Shown here piece by piece: positions 18,498 to 24,473 of a DNA stretch of 64,000 nucleotides. The stretch is from NCBI RefSeq assembly GCF_021026345.1, contig NZ_JAJNCZ010000005.1:248001-312000 (forward strand). The letters are read 5' to 3'. The translations under genes and the position numbers were made by a program. Every line of letters begins with the position of its first letter. The first letter of the stretch is position 1. The stretch comes from Rhizobium sp. GN54. GTDB taxonomy: Bacteria; Pseudomonadota; Alphaproteobacteria; Rhizobiales; Rhizobiaceae. The notes beneath the pieces are model-generated. The model saw only the letters and a list, made by a program, of their open reading frames with translations. It was not told where the DNA came from and did not search any database.

Positions 18498-18573
18498 GCC
18501 GCTTTAGCTCAGTCGGTAGAGCACATCATTCGTAATGATGGGGTCACGTGTTCGAGTCACGTAAGCGGCACCA
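18498..18573 (+). tRNA. tRNA-Thr (anticodon CGT)
   Basis: A 76-base tRNA with encoded CCA. The acceptor stem pairs GCCGCTT (18498-18504) with AAGCGGC (18563-18569), the discriminator is A, and CCA follows. The D stem/loop is TAGCTCAGTCGGTAGAGCA, the anticodon stem CATCA/TGATG encloses TTCGTAA with anticodon CGT at 18531-18533, and the T arm contains GTTCGAGTC. It reads the ACG threonine codon. Its 3' end is the attachment site of the integrative element that follows. Confidence 0.97.
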
Positions 18574-18575
18574 TT
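18557..18575. repeat. attL: 19-bp core repeat in tRNA-Thr 3' end
   Basis: TCACGTAAGCGGCACCATT occurs here within the T arm, acceptor and CCA end of tRNA-Thr and again identically at 24358-24376. Direct repeats of a tRNA 3' end around an integrase gene mark the borders of an integrated element. Confidence 0.93.
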
Positions 18576-18638: not shown

Positions 18639-20261
18639 ATGCTCAATCCTGCCTACCTTGCCAAGTCCAAGAACGGCATTTTCTACCTCCGCTGGCCGAT
18701 ACCGAAGCAGCTTCATCCGCTTAGCAAGGCAACCACGCTCAAGCTGTCACTGCGGACCCGCAACCCGAAAAATGCATTGCGCTTATCCCGTCCGCTAATT
18801 CAGATAGGCGAGAGACTGAATCAGGACGGAATAGTTGGCTGCATGCGGTATGAAGCGCTGAGAGCCTTGCTTACAGAGCATTTTCGCAACCTGCTCGAAC
18901 AGCAGAAGGCCGAGATACAAGCAGAGGGCAGGCTGTCCGCATTCCGCCGCGACGTGATTGCAGGAAGCAAATCCACCGCTGAATTGGCGCTTCAGGAAGA
19001 CAAACCCCTTCAGTTCTGGGAACGCAATGACAACAAGTTGCTTTCGGCATTCATTGAAAAGTATGCAGCCGATGTCCCCGAAGGAAGCAAACAGTACGCA
19101 TGGCTGCAAAGAGACATTAAAAGCGCGTACTTGAGCTATCTGGATGCCGTCCTCGCGTATGACGACTCCTTGGCCCGATTTAATTTGGAACCCCGTACCG
19201 GCATCAGTAGTCCACTGCCGTCACAGGGCTTAAAAGAGAAGGGGATGACCATAGCGGAGCTTGCGAGCAGCTACGTCAAAGAAAAGGAGCTTGGTGAGAA
19301 TTGGGTCGCCCGCACCAAAATGGAGAAGGCCGACCACATAAAGCTACTGCAAGAGATTCTTGGCGAGCAGACAGATATACGATCGATTACGGCAAAAGAA
19401 ACCAAGCAGGTTAAGGATACTCTAAAGGCATACCCAAAGAACCGCTCGAAGAACCGAGAGACTAGAGGCAAGCCTCTGGAAGCCGTTCTGAAAATGCAGG
19501 ATGTAGAAAGAATTCAGCCGCCCACAATCAACAAGTATCTTCAGACTTACAACGACATGTTCGAATGGGCCAGACGAAACAGCCATGTAAATGCCAATCT
19601 CTTTTCAGGCTTGGCGATACGCCAGAACAGGAAGCGTTCCCAAATTGAACGCACCGCTTTCACGAATGAGCAAGTCCGTACGATTTTGAACACGGTTGTC
19701 GAAAATAGTGCTGGCCTAATCCGCAAAGAGTACCAAAAGTGGGGACCGCTTATCGGCTTGTATACCGGTGCACGCCTAAATGAGATTGCGCAGATCGATT
19801 TGACCGACATACGCCAACAGGATGGAGTCTGGTTGTTTGACCTGAACGATGATGGCGAGGGCAAGCAGTTGAAGACAGCAGCCGCGCGGCGTCTGGTACC
19901 TATTCACCACAGGCTGATAGAACTAGGGCTTCTGGAGCATGTAGCGGAACTCCGCAAACAGGGGAAGCACAAGCTATTTCCCGACTTTCCGAACTCCATC
20001 GAGCACGGTCGAGGACGCAACCTAGGCCGATGGTTCAATGAGAAGCTGTTGCCCGAGCTGAACATCAAGAGCAAAGAACTCGTCTTTCACAGCCTACGCC
20101 ACACAGTGGTAACAAGACTGATGCAGGCGAACGTGCCGGAGCCAATTGTGAAAGCAATCGTCGGCCACCAACAGCAAGGCGTGACACAGCAGAACTATTT
20201 CAAGCAGGGCTACACGGTGCAGCAACTGGATTCCGCTCTACAGAAGCTGGACTTTCATTGA
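18639..20261 (+). CDS. Site-specific tyrosine integrase
   Basis: A 540-residue phage-type integrase. The N-terminal YLAKSKNGIFYLRWPIPKQL matches the DUF6538-like domain common in proteobacterial island integrases. A core-binding SAM-like segment (MTIAELASSYVKEKELGENW) follows, then the catalytic domain with Arg379 (TGARLNEIAQ), His484 and Arg487 (FHSLRHT), His510 (IVGHQQQG) and nucleophile Tyr520 (QQNYFKQGY). The catalytic set is complete, so the enzyme is probably active. The ATG at 18639 was chosen because any upstream start would read through the tRNA. Adjacency to attL fits insertion at tRNA-Thr. Confidence 0.95.
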   Translation: MLNPAYLAKSKNGIFYLRWPIPKQLHPLSKATTLKLSLRTRNPKNALRLSRPLIQIGERLNQDGIVGCMRYEALRALLTEHFRNLLEQQKAEIQAEGRLSAFRRDVIAGSKSTAELALQEDKPLQFWERNDNKLLSAFIEKYAADVPEGSKQYAWLQRDIKSAYLSYLDAVLAYDDSLARFNLEPRTGISSPLPSQGLKEKGMTIAELASSYVKEKELGENWVARTKMEKADHIKLLQEILGEQTDIRSITAKETKQVKDTLKAYPKNRSKNRETRGKPLEAVLKMQDVERIQPPTINKYLQTYNDMFEWARRNSHVNANLFSGLAIRQNRKRSQIERTAFTNEQVRTILNTVVENSAGLIRKEYQKWGPLIGLYTGARLNEIAQIDLTDIRQQDGVWLFDLNDDGEGKQLKTAAARRLVPIHHRLIELGLLEHVAELRKQGKHKLFPDFPNSIEHGRGRNLGRWFNEKLLPELNIKSKELVFHSLRHTVVTRLMQANVPEPIVKAIVGHQQQGVTQQNYFKQGYTVQQLDSALQKLDFH

Positions 20262-20319: not shown

Positions 20320-21219
20320 ATGACATTAATTGTATTGGCACTTATCGGATGGGGACTCTACACGTTCTTCAAGTTCAACACGAAACGGGGAGCCGAGACA
20401 GTACGAGCGCATGTCTTCCTTGGCCGCATAGAGGCGGGCGAGCATGCTGAAACTGCCAACAATGCTGCACGTCTCGATGTCTTGAATGCGCCCACTTCGC
20501 TAATTCTAGAAGCCAAAGCCAGAATAGCGGAGCAATTCGACGGCAAGCAAGGACCGATGATTGCAAAATCATATGGACTGGGCATGACTCCCCAAATATC
20601 CCCGTGGCTTAGAACTTTGGCTGGCTTAGCAACTCCGGGCAGCCTCTCGCACAATGAAGTCGTAAACGGAATAGATGAAAAACCAGAATGGGTGACGGGA
20701 TTTATTTCTTACTATGTGGCGAGTGAACTAACATATTCTCCACACAACAGTATGCCGCAGACTGTAAGGAGCCTCGTCACCGGGAGACTTGGCGCCCAAG
20801 AACAGCAGTCCTTGCTTGTATCCTTGGGCAACTACCTCGAACACCGAGAGAAGCGCCCTCGATCCCAACATGATGCTGCAATCGTTGTTTCCTCGGCTCA
20901 AGCGCTACTGAAAGAGGAGGTCACGAAAACGAGAACGCGCACGGGGATCGAAAGATACGTCCATGAGGTGCTGAAGGAAGAAGCCGGAGCAGAGCCAACA
21001 TTTGAGCAAGTGAGAACTCAGGCAGATGAACTTATCTCGATGGCCTCAGAAGGCGTCTCCAATGGAAACAAGCTACGAGACATGATCTTAAAGCACAATA
21101 TGGACACCCTTTGCCTCGCCACCAACAAGAAAACTGCGCGACAACTGGACGAAGAATTTTCATTGGCGTTCGAATCTCCGACATCGAGCTCGCCCGACTT
21201 CGCGCCCTTCAAACAGTAG
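20320..21219 (+). CDS. Unknown protein with N-terminal membrane anchor
   Basis: The 299-residue product has no family I recognise. Residues 1-19 (MTLIVLALIGWGLYTFFKF) form one membrane helix with the rest probably cytoplasmic. The body is helical and polar, with EVTKTRTRTGIERYVHEVLKEEAG and a C-terminal Ser/Pro tail. The start has a G-rich ribosome site (GGGGGGAG) that is unusually close to the ATG. It is 58 bases after the integrase on the same strand and may be co-transcribed. Its codon use is like the rest of the element and unlike the chromosome. Confidence 0.75.
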   Translation: MTLIVLALIGWGLYTFFKFNTKRGAETVRAHVFLGRIEAGEHAETANNAARLDVLNAPTSLILEAKARIAEQFDGKQGPMIAKSYGLGMTPQISPWLRTLAGLATPGSLSHNEVVNGIDEKPEWVTGFISYYVASELTYSPHNSMPQTVRSLVTGRLGAQEQQSLLVSLGNYLEHREKRPRSQHDAAIVVSSAQALLKEEVTKTRTRTGIERYVHEVLKEEAGAEPTFEQVRTQADELISMASEGVSNGNKLRDMILKHNMDTLCLATNKKTARQLDEEFSLAFESPTSSSPDFAPFKQ

Positions 21220-21410: not shown

Positions 21411-22046
21411 TCACATCCTCCAGACGGCCAACGCTCTTTCGGCATCCTCCGGGGCGTTCCTTATCCGCAAAATCGTTTGCCGTGTGAGGTTTGTCATCCT
21501 GGCAATGGCTGATGCACCAACCCCCTCAGACAGCAATCTGACGACTAACGAATACTGGCTGCGATCATAGGTCGGCTTTCTACCCTTGTATTTCCCCCGA
21601 TCCGCCATGGCATGATCAATGCCCGCCCGCTGAGCTTCCTTAGTCGCCTCAGCTTGAGCCTGAGCAGTCGCCGCCATGAATGCAATCAGTGCGTCACGTA
21701 CCGCCTCTTGGATGGGGTCTCGCGTAGAGCCATCAAATGTCATGGCGTTTATAACGGTGCGCACAACTACCCCACGCCGCATAAACTCCCTGATGGCATC
21801 GCAAACGTCCCGGTAGTCTCTACCCAATCGATCTACCCAGCGGACAACCAACGTATCGCCTTGCCGAAGCAGATCATACAGACGCCTCCCCTCCGGCCTT
21901 TCTCTCAGTGCGCCTCCAATGCCAGTTTGTCCATGATCCGCAATAACCTGATCAATGCTGAAGCCGGCCTTACGAGCCTGCTGCTCCTGATGCTCAATTG
22001 TCTGATCAAGGGTTGATACACGTGCGTAGAGGATCGTAGCCATCAT
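21411..22046 (-). CDS. Serine recombinase (resolvase/invertase family)
   Basis: A 211-residue small serine recombinase. The N-terminal catalytic domain has Ser11 in LYARVSTLDQT, the EHQEQQARKAG segment, the RPEGRRLYDLLRQGDTLVV region and the DRLGRDYRD arginines. The C-terminal helix-turn-helix is GASAIARMTNLTRQTILRI. All expected catalytic residues are visible. It is the second recombinase on the element, transcribed opposite to the integrase. It may resolve or invert DNA near the AT-rich region, or be left from a nested element. ATGs at 22046 and 22043 are both possible starts. Confidence 0.93.
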   Translation of the reverse strand: MMATILYARVSTLDQTIEHQEQQARKAGFSIDQVIADHGQTGIGGALRERPEGRRLYDLLRQGDTLVVRWVDRLGRDYRDVCDAIREFMRRGVVVRTVINAMTFDGSTRDPIQEAVRDALIAFMAATAQAQAEATKEAQRAGIDHAMADRGKYKGRKPTYDRSQYSLVVRLLSEGVGASAIARMTNLTRQTILRIRNAPEDAERALAVWRM

Positions 22047-22886: not shown

Positions 22887-23384
22887 TCACCCACCGATAG
22901 AGGTCATCCACCCTTGCATCAGCCCCTTCATCTTCGCATCATATGCGTAGCTGAGGACCCAGGAAGTGATGCCGCCGAAGATGAACGTGCCGATCCATAT
23001 AAGGACGGACTGAAGACGTGTCGGCATGCCGAGCATATCCCTTAGCCGGTCTTTTTCCGTTGCGGTCATTTGCGCAAGAAGAGCTCTGTCGGCCGATAGC
23101 CGGTCTCGCTCCCTGCCGATCTCAACGACCGATTTCTGTATGCTTGCCAGCTCCCGCTTATGCTCGTGAGCAGTCGCCTTGATGTCATCAATTGCAGACA
23201 AGGCTTCGAGCAGGTTCTCCCGTGCAGCCTCTATCTTTGCAAGGCGCTTATCTACGTCACCGACTTCTTTCTTTACGATGGCGTCGTACAGATCGACGCC
23301 CACGGTTACGCCTATAGAACCGGATAGGACCTTTAGCGCGACCCGCGCCAAGCGACTGGCGACAACTTCAAATTCAACGCTCAC
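22887..23384 (-). CDS. Coiled-coil protein with C-terminal membrane helix, cassette gene B
   Basis: The product has 165 residues and an unknown function. Residues 1-30 include a weakly hydrophobic segment (VALKVLSGSIGVTVGVDLYDAIV). Residues about 35-110 form a charged coiled coil (KRLAKIEAARENLLEALSAI to DRLSADRALLAQMTATEKDRL). Residues about 124-147 are a strong membrane helix (SVLIWIGTFIFGGITSWVLSYAY), followed by a short tail. The layout resembles DUF1640/Bdr-like coiled-coil membrane proteins, but no homology is claimed. The GTG start at 23384 has its ribosome site GAGGTGAG overlapping the stop of the upstream gene, so the two are translationally coupled. Confidence 0.8.
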   Translation of the reverse strand: MSVEFEVVASRLARVALKVLSGSIGVTVGVDLYDAIVKKEVGDVDKRLAKIEAARENLLEALSAIDDIKATAHEHKRELASIQKSVVEIGRERDRLSADRALLAQMTATEKDRLRDMLGMPTRLQSVLIWIGTFIFGGITSWVLSYAYDAKMKGLMQGWMTSIGG

Positions 23385-23392
23385 AACTCACC

Positions 23393-24091
23393 TCAAAACG
23401 GGATGTCTTCATCCAAGTCGCGGCTGAATGTTGGCTCAACCTTCTTCGGGCCCTCAATGCGCTTGCGCTCGATTGGAGGGGGCAATTTGATGTCGCCTTC
23501 AAGGTCTTTTGCGTGGCCGAGCAACTCATTGATCCGCTTGACGAGTTCGCTGAGAGGATTGAGGCTTTCCCCTACCTTTTTTGCGGCGTCCGCTGCGTCG
23601 ATGATGAAAGCCATCGCATTGTCAAAGCGGGTGCGGCTACGGTCTACATCAGCCTCAAACACATTGAGCTTGGCATAGAGCGAATTGCGCTTGCGCTCTT
23701 CAATGTCGGCCTGTTGAATCACCCGACGGATGGCGGTGATGAGGCCGTGGATGCGTTCTTTCGTTGGTGCATCCAGTAGTACGGTGTAAACCTTGGCCGT
23801 GCGTGCTCGCTTGACTTGAGCTCGTATTACGTAGGCCTTAGTGAAGAGCTTAAAATCGCTGATCTCTTTGTAGGCGTCATTCCATTCAGGGATGCTCCAA
23901 TTGCTGAACTCTACAATTCCAAGCGCACTGGCGGCAGAGAGAACATTGTTCATGAACTCGATACCGACTTGCCGCGTATCCTCGTTGTCCCCGTAGCTTT
24001 TCAGCTCATCCTGATACTGCTCGGTGAATTCCTCGATGTACTGAAGCAACGCTATTTCATCGTCGTCTGGCAAGTTCTCGAAATCGGGCAC
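23393..24091 (-). CDS. Helical protein with SSB-like C-terminal tip, cassette gene A
   Basis: The product has 232 residues and an unknown function. The body is predicted helical and acidic at the N-terminus (MPDFENLPDDDEIALLQYIEE), with a basic middle (RAQVKRARTAKVY, RIHGLITAIRRVIQ) and a long amphipathic stretch (ESLNPLSELVKRINELLGHAKDLEG). A proline- and lysine-rich linker (PPPIERKRIEGPKK) then leads to the end DLDEDIPF. That ending closely matches the C-terminal tip of bacterial SSB, the docking peptide for RecO, RecQ, PriA, exonuclease I and others. No OB-fold is seen. Start is GTG 24091 with AAGGA eight bases before. It is followed by gene B after 8 bases. Confidence 0.82.
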   Translation of the reverse strand: MPDFENLPDDDEIALLQYIEEFTEQYQDELKSYGDNEDTRQVGIEFMNNVLSAASALGIVEFSNWSIPEWNDAYKEISDFKLFTKAYVIRAQVKRARTAKVYTVLLDAPTKERIHGLITAIRRVIQQADIEERKRNSLYAKLNVFEADVDRSRTRFDNAMAFIIDAADAAKKVGESLNPLSELVKRINELLGHAKDLEGDIKLPPPIERKRIEGPKKVEPTFSRDLDEDIPF

Positions 24092-24473
24092 AATTTCTTT
24101 CCTTGTAGGGTTGGCAGACTATGCAACCAAAATAGTAATTGGTTTAGCGGCATACAATCGCCAATCCCACGATATCCCGTTCTTTATTCGTTCCCACAAG
24201 CGCAGGCCGCTGGCCCTGCTCTCACCATACCTATACGGCAATTCCCTATTGTACTGACCAGCGCTCTATGAGACTTAGTACAGACAAGGGGGACATAACG
24301 TCCCTCCCCCATACCTCGGCGCAAGCGAAATCAAATCCTTAGATGAGTGGTCAGCGCTCACGTAAGCGGCACCATTTTTCCCAATTCCAGAATTCTTGCA
24401 CGCGCCATCGGCGCGGAGCGCGATGAGACGGTTCCGGCCCGCCCCGGCCACGAGGTGCCCCCTGCCCGGCAGG
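24092..24473. other. Intergenic region with attR
   Basis: This 382-base stretch has no supported gene. From 24092 to 24357 it should hold the promoter of the two-gene cassette; I see no clear -35/-10 pair. The attR copy is at 24358-24376, and beyond it lies ordinary chromosome up to the permease stop at 24474. The T run just after attR (24375-24379) probably belonged to the original 3' trailer of tRNA-Thr. Confidence 0.7.
24358..24376. repeat. attR: second 19-bp core repeat
   Basis: Identical to 18557-18575 over 19 bases (TCACGTAAGCGGCACCATT). Sequence before it does not continue the tRNA, so it is the distal att copy rather than a second tRNA gene. Confidence 0.93.

Follow-up and report, generated by a model that had tools for sequence, protein, structure and literature searches.

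A helical tRNA-Thr element protein of Rhizobium as a candidate mimic of the host SSB C-terminal tip

A window of 64,000 nucleotides from Rhizobium sp. GN54 (contig NZ_JAJNCZ010000005.1, positions 248,001 to 312,000; "the window" denotes this whole stretch) contains a 5.8-kb low-GC element in tRNA-Thr, and the cargo located between the exact 19-bp attachment (att) repeats of this element includes a gene for a 232-residue protein that ends much like the host's single-stranded DNA-binding protein (SSB). Judging from sequence, we consider it likely, with a probability of roughly 0.6, that this cargo protein represents an undescribed helical family that mimics the C-terminal tip of the host SSB and docks host SSB-interacting proteins (SIPs) as an adaptor. 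That the tip is a functional mimic of the SSB tip appears highly probable in itself, while the adaptor role, taken separately, stands at about even odds. In bacteria, the SSB tip is an address label that guides repair and replication enzymes to single-stranded DNA. If our reading is correct, a mobile family would carry this label on an unrelated fold, adjusting it to each host, and would be a natural hub mimic. Such a family would offer a means to steer or block SSB partners inside cells and a fresh approach to how mobile elements and defence loci are coupled to replication forks; it would also amount to a natural experiment on the tip residues that these partners actually read. The agreement of related proteins with the SSB tail of their own host suggests that such elements may plug into the DNA-repair hub of the host.

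The 232-residue protein and its C-terminal end

The gene occupies positions 23393..24091 on the minus strand, with a GTG start codon, AAGGAAAG directly upstream of this start, and a TGA stop codon at 23393-23395. An earlier sequence-only reading had claimed that the protein ends in an SSB-like tip, DLDEDIPF, immediately before this stop, and both the open reading frame and the comparison with the host SSB confirmed it. The C-terminal residues are IERKRIEGPKKVEPTFSRDLDEDIPF (in a longer stretch, ERKRIEGPKKVEPTFSRDLDEDIPF), so that the end reads FSRDLDEDIPF, while the only SSB-family match in the host genome terminates in SQSFSRDMDDDIPF, that is FSRDMDDDIPF. The tip (residues 225-232; 23396..23419, minus strand) presents the features of an SSB-Ct docking peptide, namely a terminal Phe with a free carboxylate, preceded by Pro and acidic residues. 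Across the 5,567,253 bases of the genome, the DNA pattern GAN-GAN-Ile-Pro-Phe-stop was matched twice, at the ends of ssb and of the 232-residue protein gene, and the same pattern read backwards was not matched at all. When this pattern, in which the last codon is coded TRR and TGG consequently passes as well, was applied to 96 sampled genomes of the class, it was matched in 81 and exactly once in 67, as compared to 6 of the 96 for the reversed control.

The body of the protein (residues 1-200; 23492..24091, minus strand) has a net charge of -11, and the AlphaFold2 model is nearly all helix, with helices at residues 11-33, 39-56, 70-101, 108-127, 132-150 and 156-200 and two strands of three residues (mean pLDDT 88.2, pTM 0.58). 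The confidence of the model drops across the last 32 residues. The stretch before the tip, described in the sequence-only reading as a Pro/Lys-rich linker, is indeed of this kind: residues 201-224 (23420..23491, minus strand) have no predicted secondary structure and follow the family consensus LPxPExxKxLxPP. This consensus forms a second linear motif at residues 203-217 of the window protein, and a loose form of it also occurs in tip-less members. The same reading had proposed a helical protein without an OB-fold, which agrees with the model and with the lack of any SSB/OB Pfam (PF00436) match at E up to 5; the check it proposed for an OB-fold or an ordinary SSB found neither. Ordinary SSB identity was ruled out by the absent profile match together with the helical model, the SSB of the genome being another gene.

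Searches of the PDB and viral libraries gave no convincing fold match for the body, which is no proof of a new fold, and no PDB sequence relative with an E-value below 0.08. The best E-values for the whole protein were 0.11 in Pfam, 0.032 in PHROGs and 0.051 in NCBIfam, none of them significant, and a PADLOC 2.0.0 scan returned no family at E up to 5. Likewise, Pfam and NCBIfam searches with 14 members of alignment A1 revealed no family common to two or more of them. Among the titles and abstract starts returned by searches of the open-licence PubMed Central (PMC) literature, no description of a natural non-SSB family with an SSB tip was found. The statement that no such family was known thus held for Pfam, NCBIfam, PHROGs, PADLOC and the literature searched, and no described family having been found there, we refer to this helical tip-bearing family as undescribed.

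Tip conservation and agreement with the host SSB

The family was analysed through 35 full-length members, consisting of 31 members placed in a tree plus L149, L151, L152 and L153. Relatives left out of this set were L014 (one in-frame stop, no tip), L022 and L032 (split by frameshifts, tip present), the fragments L029 and L033, L046 (no tip), the distant and tip-less L141, and the duplicates L148 (of L021) and L150 (of L003). False or weak matches were excluded by reading, including L015 (glyceraldehyde-3-phosphate dehydrogenase-like), L016 (sugar isomerase-like), the long unrelated frames L030, L031 and L039, and L143-L146. A Pro-Phe end was present in 24 of the 35 members, as Ile-Pro-Phe in 21, Val-Pro-Phe in two and Asn-Pro-Phe in one. 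Among these 24, the median pairwise identity was 24% for the body and 83% for the last six residues, among which Pro and Phe are constant as a result of how the 24 were chosen and the other positions are free. The sequence-only reading had asked whether the tip stays conserved when the body diverges; this proved to be so for the 24 members, but not for the remaining 11, which lack the Pro-Phe end.

On the tree of 31 bodies, the tip requires six changes, at least four of them on well-supported branches, which indicates that it was gained or lost several times. One supported tip-less clade of four (L049, L050, L053 and L054; homologues L005, L006, L009 and L010) is located near genes that by reading are suf-like, and in three of these loci the family gene overlaps its neighbour. 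In the pCMU01 copy (L151), the tip has been lost and the end is a different one. As separate observations, the tip-less L026 (L073:9690-10409) lies between genes read as ruvA- and ruvB-like, has a 4-nt overlap with the ruvA-like gene and encodes an acidic C-terminal end without Ile-Pro-Phe; in L043 (L069:9218-9925) a stop codon stands immediately 5' of Ile-Pro-Phe codons, and the SSB tip of its host is ordinary.

The end of the family members was compared with that of the SSB from the same genome. SSB was sought in 28 further member-bearing genomes and found in 27, the best match per genome being used for the comparison and extra copies being read later; the plasmid-borne L017, L018, L152 and L153, as well as L149, were left out because the host SSB had not been fetched. 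The main SSB copies that were read end in Ile-Pro-Phe or Val-Pro-Phe, and they do so also in genomes whose family member is tip-less. At position -4, the residue before Ile-Pro-Phe, the family member and the host SSB were identical in 18 of the 18 genomes with Asp or Glu: both have Glu in 11 genomes (G1193, G1107, G260, G206, G410, G041, G189, G256, G027, G583 and G418) and Asp in seven (G755, G927, G1114, G154, G1026, G636 and the window's own genome, G000). Fisher's test gave p = 3.1e-5 for this matching, or 0.018 after multiplication by the 566 residue partitions scanned, among which 3.1e-5 was the smallest value and 0.013 the next. Of the 28 family-alignment columns that vary between Asp and Glu, position -4 tracks the host SSB, and the best of the other 27 reached p = 0.048. 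When host labels were shuffled inside family clades, which were hand-picked from the tree of 31 bodies, 18 matches were attained at a frequency of 0.0012. When each host family and state was represented by a single genome, 11 of 11 matched in a count by hand. This agreement at position -4 is the strongest evidence in favour of mimicry.

Relatives shift at this position with their hosts. The window protein has Asp where L041 has Glu, L040 has Glu where L003, L021 and L037 have Asp, and L020 has Glu where L036 and L038 have Asp. Furthermore, the SSB and the family member of G1026 both end in DDDVPF, and those of G189 both end in FSRDLDDEIPF. Among the extra SSB copies, the second one of G189 ends in DDEIPF plus an extension and that of G631 in DDEIGF, the second copies of G636 and G027 are tip-less, and that of G534 was unreadable by the script. 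At the nucleotide level, 19 pairs of tip and host ssb share 125 identical residues, only 64 of which have the identical codon, and the last 39 nt of the window gene are identical to host ssb at 29 positions, with differing codons. Since no more than 64 of the 125 identical residues share their codon, protein-level selection is favoured over recent DNA transfer; recent copying of DNA from the 3' end of ssb, which we had considered as a candidate origin, was disfavoured by these same codon differences. The most fitting interpretation of the tip is mimicry of the SSB tip at the level of the protein.

Several observations weigh against this reading. As indicated above, the tip is absent from 11 of the 35 full-length members, and the one invariant column of alignment A3 lies within the linker. 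L025 has Lys at position -4 where its host SSB has Glu, and it was left out of the 18. The genome G1107 is ambiguous, as two of its three SSBs have Glu at -4 and the third, ending in DDDDIPF, has Asp; upon its omission the matches amount to 17 of 17, and to 10 of 10 in the hand count. The Ile position is less well matched, differing in G927, G418, G583 and the first SSB of G1107. Finally, position -4 was picked after the table had been viewed, and the 18 genomes are non-independent.

Proposed docking role and competing explanations

According to PMC10164576, the SSB tip docks with its terminal Phe in a hydrophobic pocket, the carboxylate on a basic lip and the Asp residues on a basic ridge, and deletion of the Phe abolishes binding in vitro; in the ExoI crystal it is the DIPF segment, which includes position -4, that is resolved (PMC10143822). 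In the mechanism that we propose, the helical body would hold a partner or site of its own, here possibly the adjacent 165-residue protein with its hydrophobic stretch, and the linker would let the tip extend from the body. One or more host SIPs, with RecO, RecG, PriA, RecQ and the polymerase chi subunit as examples, may then receive the free C-terminal Phe in their SSB-tip pocket, by which a host repair or replication enzyme would be delivered to the body. At a high protein level, competition with SSB might occur as well. An adaptor that docks host SIPs is favoured because the terminal Phe and the acidic residues are kept and because position -4, the D of DIPF, matches the host. We infer the SIP binding, the adaptor rather than blocker role, and a benefit that could lie in maintenance of the element or in defence against other elements. 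Equally balanced in our judgement is the broader proposal that widespread alphaproteobacterial mobile-element adaptors plug into the SSB hub, with a mimic tuned to the exact tip of the current host and with host enzymes being passed on to the element or else to defence systems in its neighbourhood.

The possibility that the protein is a pure decoy or blocker, filling SSB-tip pockets so that the element, or a SIP-using phage, meets weakened host recombination, fork restart or nuclease action, seems less likely. It would be in agreement with the matching of the tip to the host SSB and with the mobility of the gene in its tRNA-Thr element, and tip peptides and small mimics compete for SIPs in vitro (PMC10143822). 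However, the body is kept in the 11 tip-less members, which implies a role of its own and favours a modular adaptor over a pure decoy, and a single micromolar tip per chain (the value for the E. coli peptide in that source) would compete poorly unless the protein forms oligomers or is present in large amounts. Similarly doubtful is a function in defence or sensing, where the tip would provide a tether to SIPs located at forks or on invading DNA and the body would signal or aid a neighbouring effector, such as a type IIG enzyme, an RT-Toprim protein or a PIN nuclease. On three methylotroph plasmids (L018, L151 and L152), the family gene immediately precedes a 2,814-bp gene with a DNA methyltransferase annotation and a gene annotated as phospholipase D family; the methyltransferase gene of L018, the sole one scanned, contains MmeI domains and gave matches to type IIG models. 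In addition, type I-E CRISPR genes follow in L152, an RT-Toprim-like gene is located about 430 bp downstream of the family gene in L062, and a PIN_12 gene is adjacent to it in L063. Nevertheless, the L151 copy is tip-less, most tip-bearing loci have no recognised defence gene alongside (by eye, with 10 neighbours scanned), clustering of neighbours over 33 loci revealed as a rule no recurrent partner beside tip-bearing members, and PADLOC gave nothing or weak matches (E 0.0055 or above) for the two uncharacterised genes of the window's element.

Two further explanations leave SSB partners aside. Conceivably, the acidic tip could serve autoregulation by folding back onto a basic region, either in the body or in an oligomer partner, its likeness to SSB then reflecting only general requirements; Hfq is autoregulated by acidic C-terminal tails (PMC5606850). 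With a net body charge of -11, and with the host matching at position -4 and the terminal Pro-Phe both left unexplained by autoregulation, we regard such self-docking as improbable. Still more remote is a chance or inherited likeness, in which the tip would be neutral or copied from ssb. A few unrelated proteins in the sampled genomes do carry such tips, which are absent in the checked relatives of two of them, but the tip of the present family is kept across members at about 24% body identity, its codons differ from those of host ssb, and the pattern has just two matches in the whole genome.

In comparison with known systems, the 232-residue protein resembles bacterial SSB (PF00436) in having the tip at the extreme C-terminus after a predicted disordered linker and in its identity at position -4 in the 18 scorable genomes. 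In contrast to SSB, which is an essential core gene product, it has no SSB profile match, a helical body and an accessory mobile gene. With the SIPs RecO, RecG, PriA, ExoI and DinG it would share an identical interface, although in their case the pocket belongs to the SIP, whereas here the peptide belongs to the 232-residue protein. Among mobile-element proteins, PsiB, Ocr and others like them interfere with host DNA metabolism, and the proposed likeness consists in a mobile-element protein acting on the repair or restriction machinery of the host; none of them is known to carry an SSB tip. Man-made SSB-tip mimics (PMC10143822) and a PriB-SSBc chimera (PMC8509808) also present the tip or a mimic outside SSB, but they are artificial, while the window protein is natural, host-matched and of unrelated fold.

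The tRNA-Thr element and the loci of relatives

The element is integrated at tRNA-Thr (CGT), which lies at 18498-18573 on the plus strand. The exact 19-bp att repeats lie on the plus strand at 18557-18575, overlapping the 3' end of the tRNA gene, and at 24358-24376. G+C content is 0.509 within the element as compared to 0.642 for the window, and at the far repeat the profile drops to about 0.5 upon entry into the element, from about 0.65 beyond it. A tyrosine integrase is encoded next to the tRNA gene at 18639..20261 on the plus strand (PF00589, 3.5e-15; phrog_1; both searched from 18621), the start at 18639 being putative as the first in-frame ATG past the tRNA gene, counted by hand. Carriage by a tRNA-Thr mobile element, as the sequence-only reading had it, is thus substantiated by the integrase, the repeats and the drop in G+C. 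A search of seven genomes of the genus, the own genome included, located both flanks in every one of them. They are spaced by about 250 bp in G263, 670 bp in G145 and 1.6 kb in G1330, and enclose about 7 kb in G209, 11.5 kb in G054 and 49 kb in G1331; given this range of distances, the tRNA-Thr (CGT) site is variable within the genus. The site of G263 is nearly empty, yet there is no exact junction. Altogether, an integrase beside a tRNA gene, att repeats, foreign composition and a variable site were found, as is typical of a tyrosine-integrase tRNA element.

Downstream of the tip gene and on the same minus strand, at a distance of 8 bp from its stop codon, follows the gene for the 165-residue protein (22887..23384), and the two genes are probably co-transcribed. 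No family reached its curated cut-off for this protein, which gave weak helical or coiled-coil-like matches and has a hydrophobic stretch at about residues 126-145. The element further encodes a serine resolvase/invertase at 21411..22046 on the minus strand (PF00239, 3.7e-24; phrog_125) and, at 20320..21219 on the plus strand, a 299-residue protein with a hydrophobic N-terminus. In G019, a related integrase (42% identity) is followed by a protein resembling the start of the 299-residue one and, further along, by a resolvase-like gene and others. Proteins of this type (window 20320-21219 and L181:3055-3354) seem, in these two cases, to accompany this type of integrase.

The genome searches for relatives overlap in their genomes, and matches were judged real or false by reading. 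In the GTDB family, 14 of 297 genomes matched and 13 were judged real, including the own genome, in which the window gene is the one member found. All nine matches among 347 genomes of the order were taken as real, as were 11 of the 13 among 385 genomes of the class and five of the six among 398 genomes of the phylum; these five all fall within the class, the share of the 398 outside it being unstated. Members were accordingly seen in Alphaproteobacteria only, among the genomes sampled here. The window protein, L040 and L020 as queries retrieved three, two and four plasmid records, respectively, in overlapping sets. With two queries, tblastn gave no relative in 50,697 phage records, and in viral_contigs no relative was confirmed with two single-protein queries, a kind of search limited to close relatives. 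In the named-genome set, L040 yielded three confirmed relatives and the window protein none. The C-terminal-half profile A4 matched in 11 of 240 genomes; read individually, these matches were members, fragments, the distant L141 and the coiled-coil chance matches L143-L146. Fusions of the C-terminal half of the family to other domains were also considered, and the A4 matches in these 240 genomes gave none.

Besides the defence-related loci described above, a HipA-like gene is located about 2 kb from the family gene in L051, and serine resolvase genes are close by in the window, in L017 (annotated) and in L056 and L149 (by reading). Phage-like genes were read near L052 and L066, and several family copies are solitary among housekeeping-like genes. 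The fetched stretch contains tRNA genes in 10 of 33 loci, seven of which have tip-bearing members, without integration there being implied. The neighbour clusters that recurred in at least 3 of the 33 loci comprised, besides the family itself, a helix-turn-helix gene (four loci), a ligase-like gene (three), and suf-like and ATP-binding cassette (ABC) genes. By reading, differing hydrophobic or coiled-coil-like proteins directly flank the family gene at 22887-23384 of the window, L149:304-1035 and L075:3478-4107. In L057 and L058, the family gene and a convergent neighbour overlap by 4 nt via their stop codons.

SSB-like tips on other proteins were surveyed at 29 places matched by the pattern, fetched from 13 genomes with more than one match and from G365; other genomes with a single match were left unread. 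Sixteen places were SSB, seven non-SSB, one unclear and two too short, and three were not stops. The seven non-SSB frames from sampled alphaproteobacterial genomes (L107, L111, L121, L122, L124, L133 and L134) comprise two DUF736 proteins, one Abi_C/AbiJ-like protein, one DarT, one HerA-like protein, one MvaI/BcnI enzyme and one of no recognised kind. The tip is absent from the readable ends of the HerA relatives L186 and L187 and of the DUF736 relative L189; L188 was cut off by the fetched end, and the query for relatives of the L133 DUF736 protein found none. That SSB tips might be a general habit of defence proteins can be taken from these frames as a lead.
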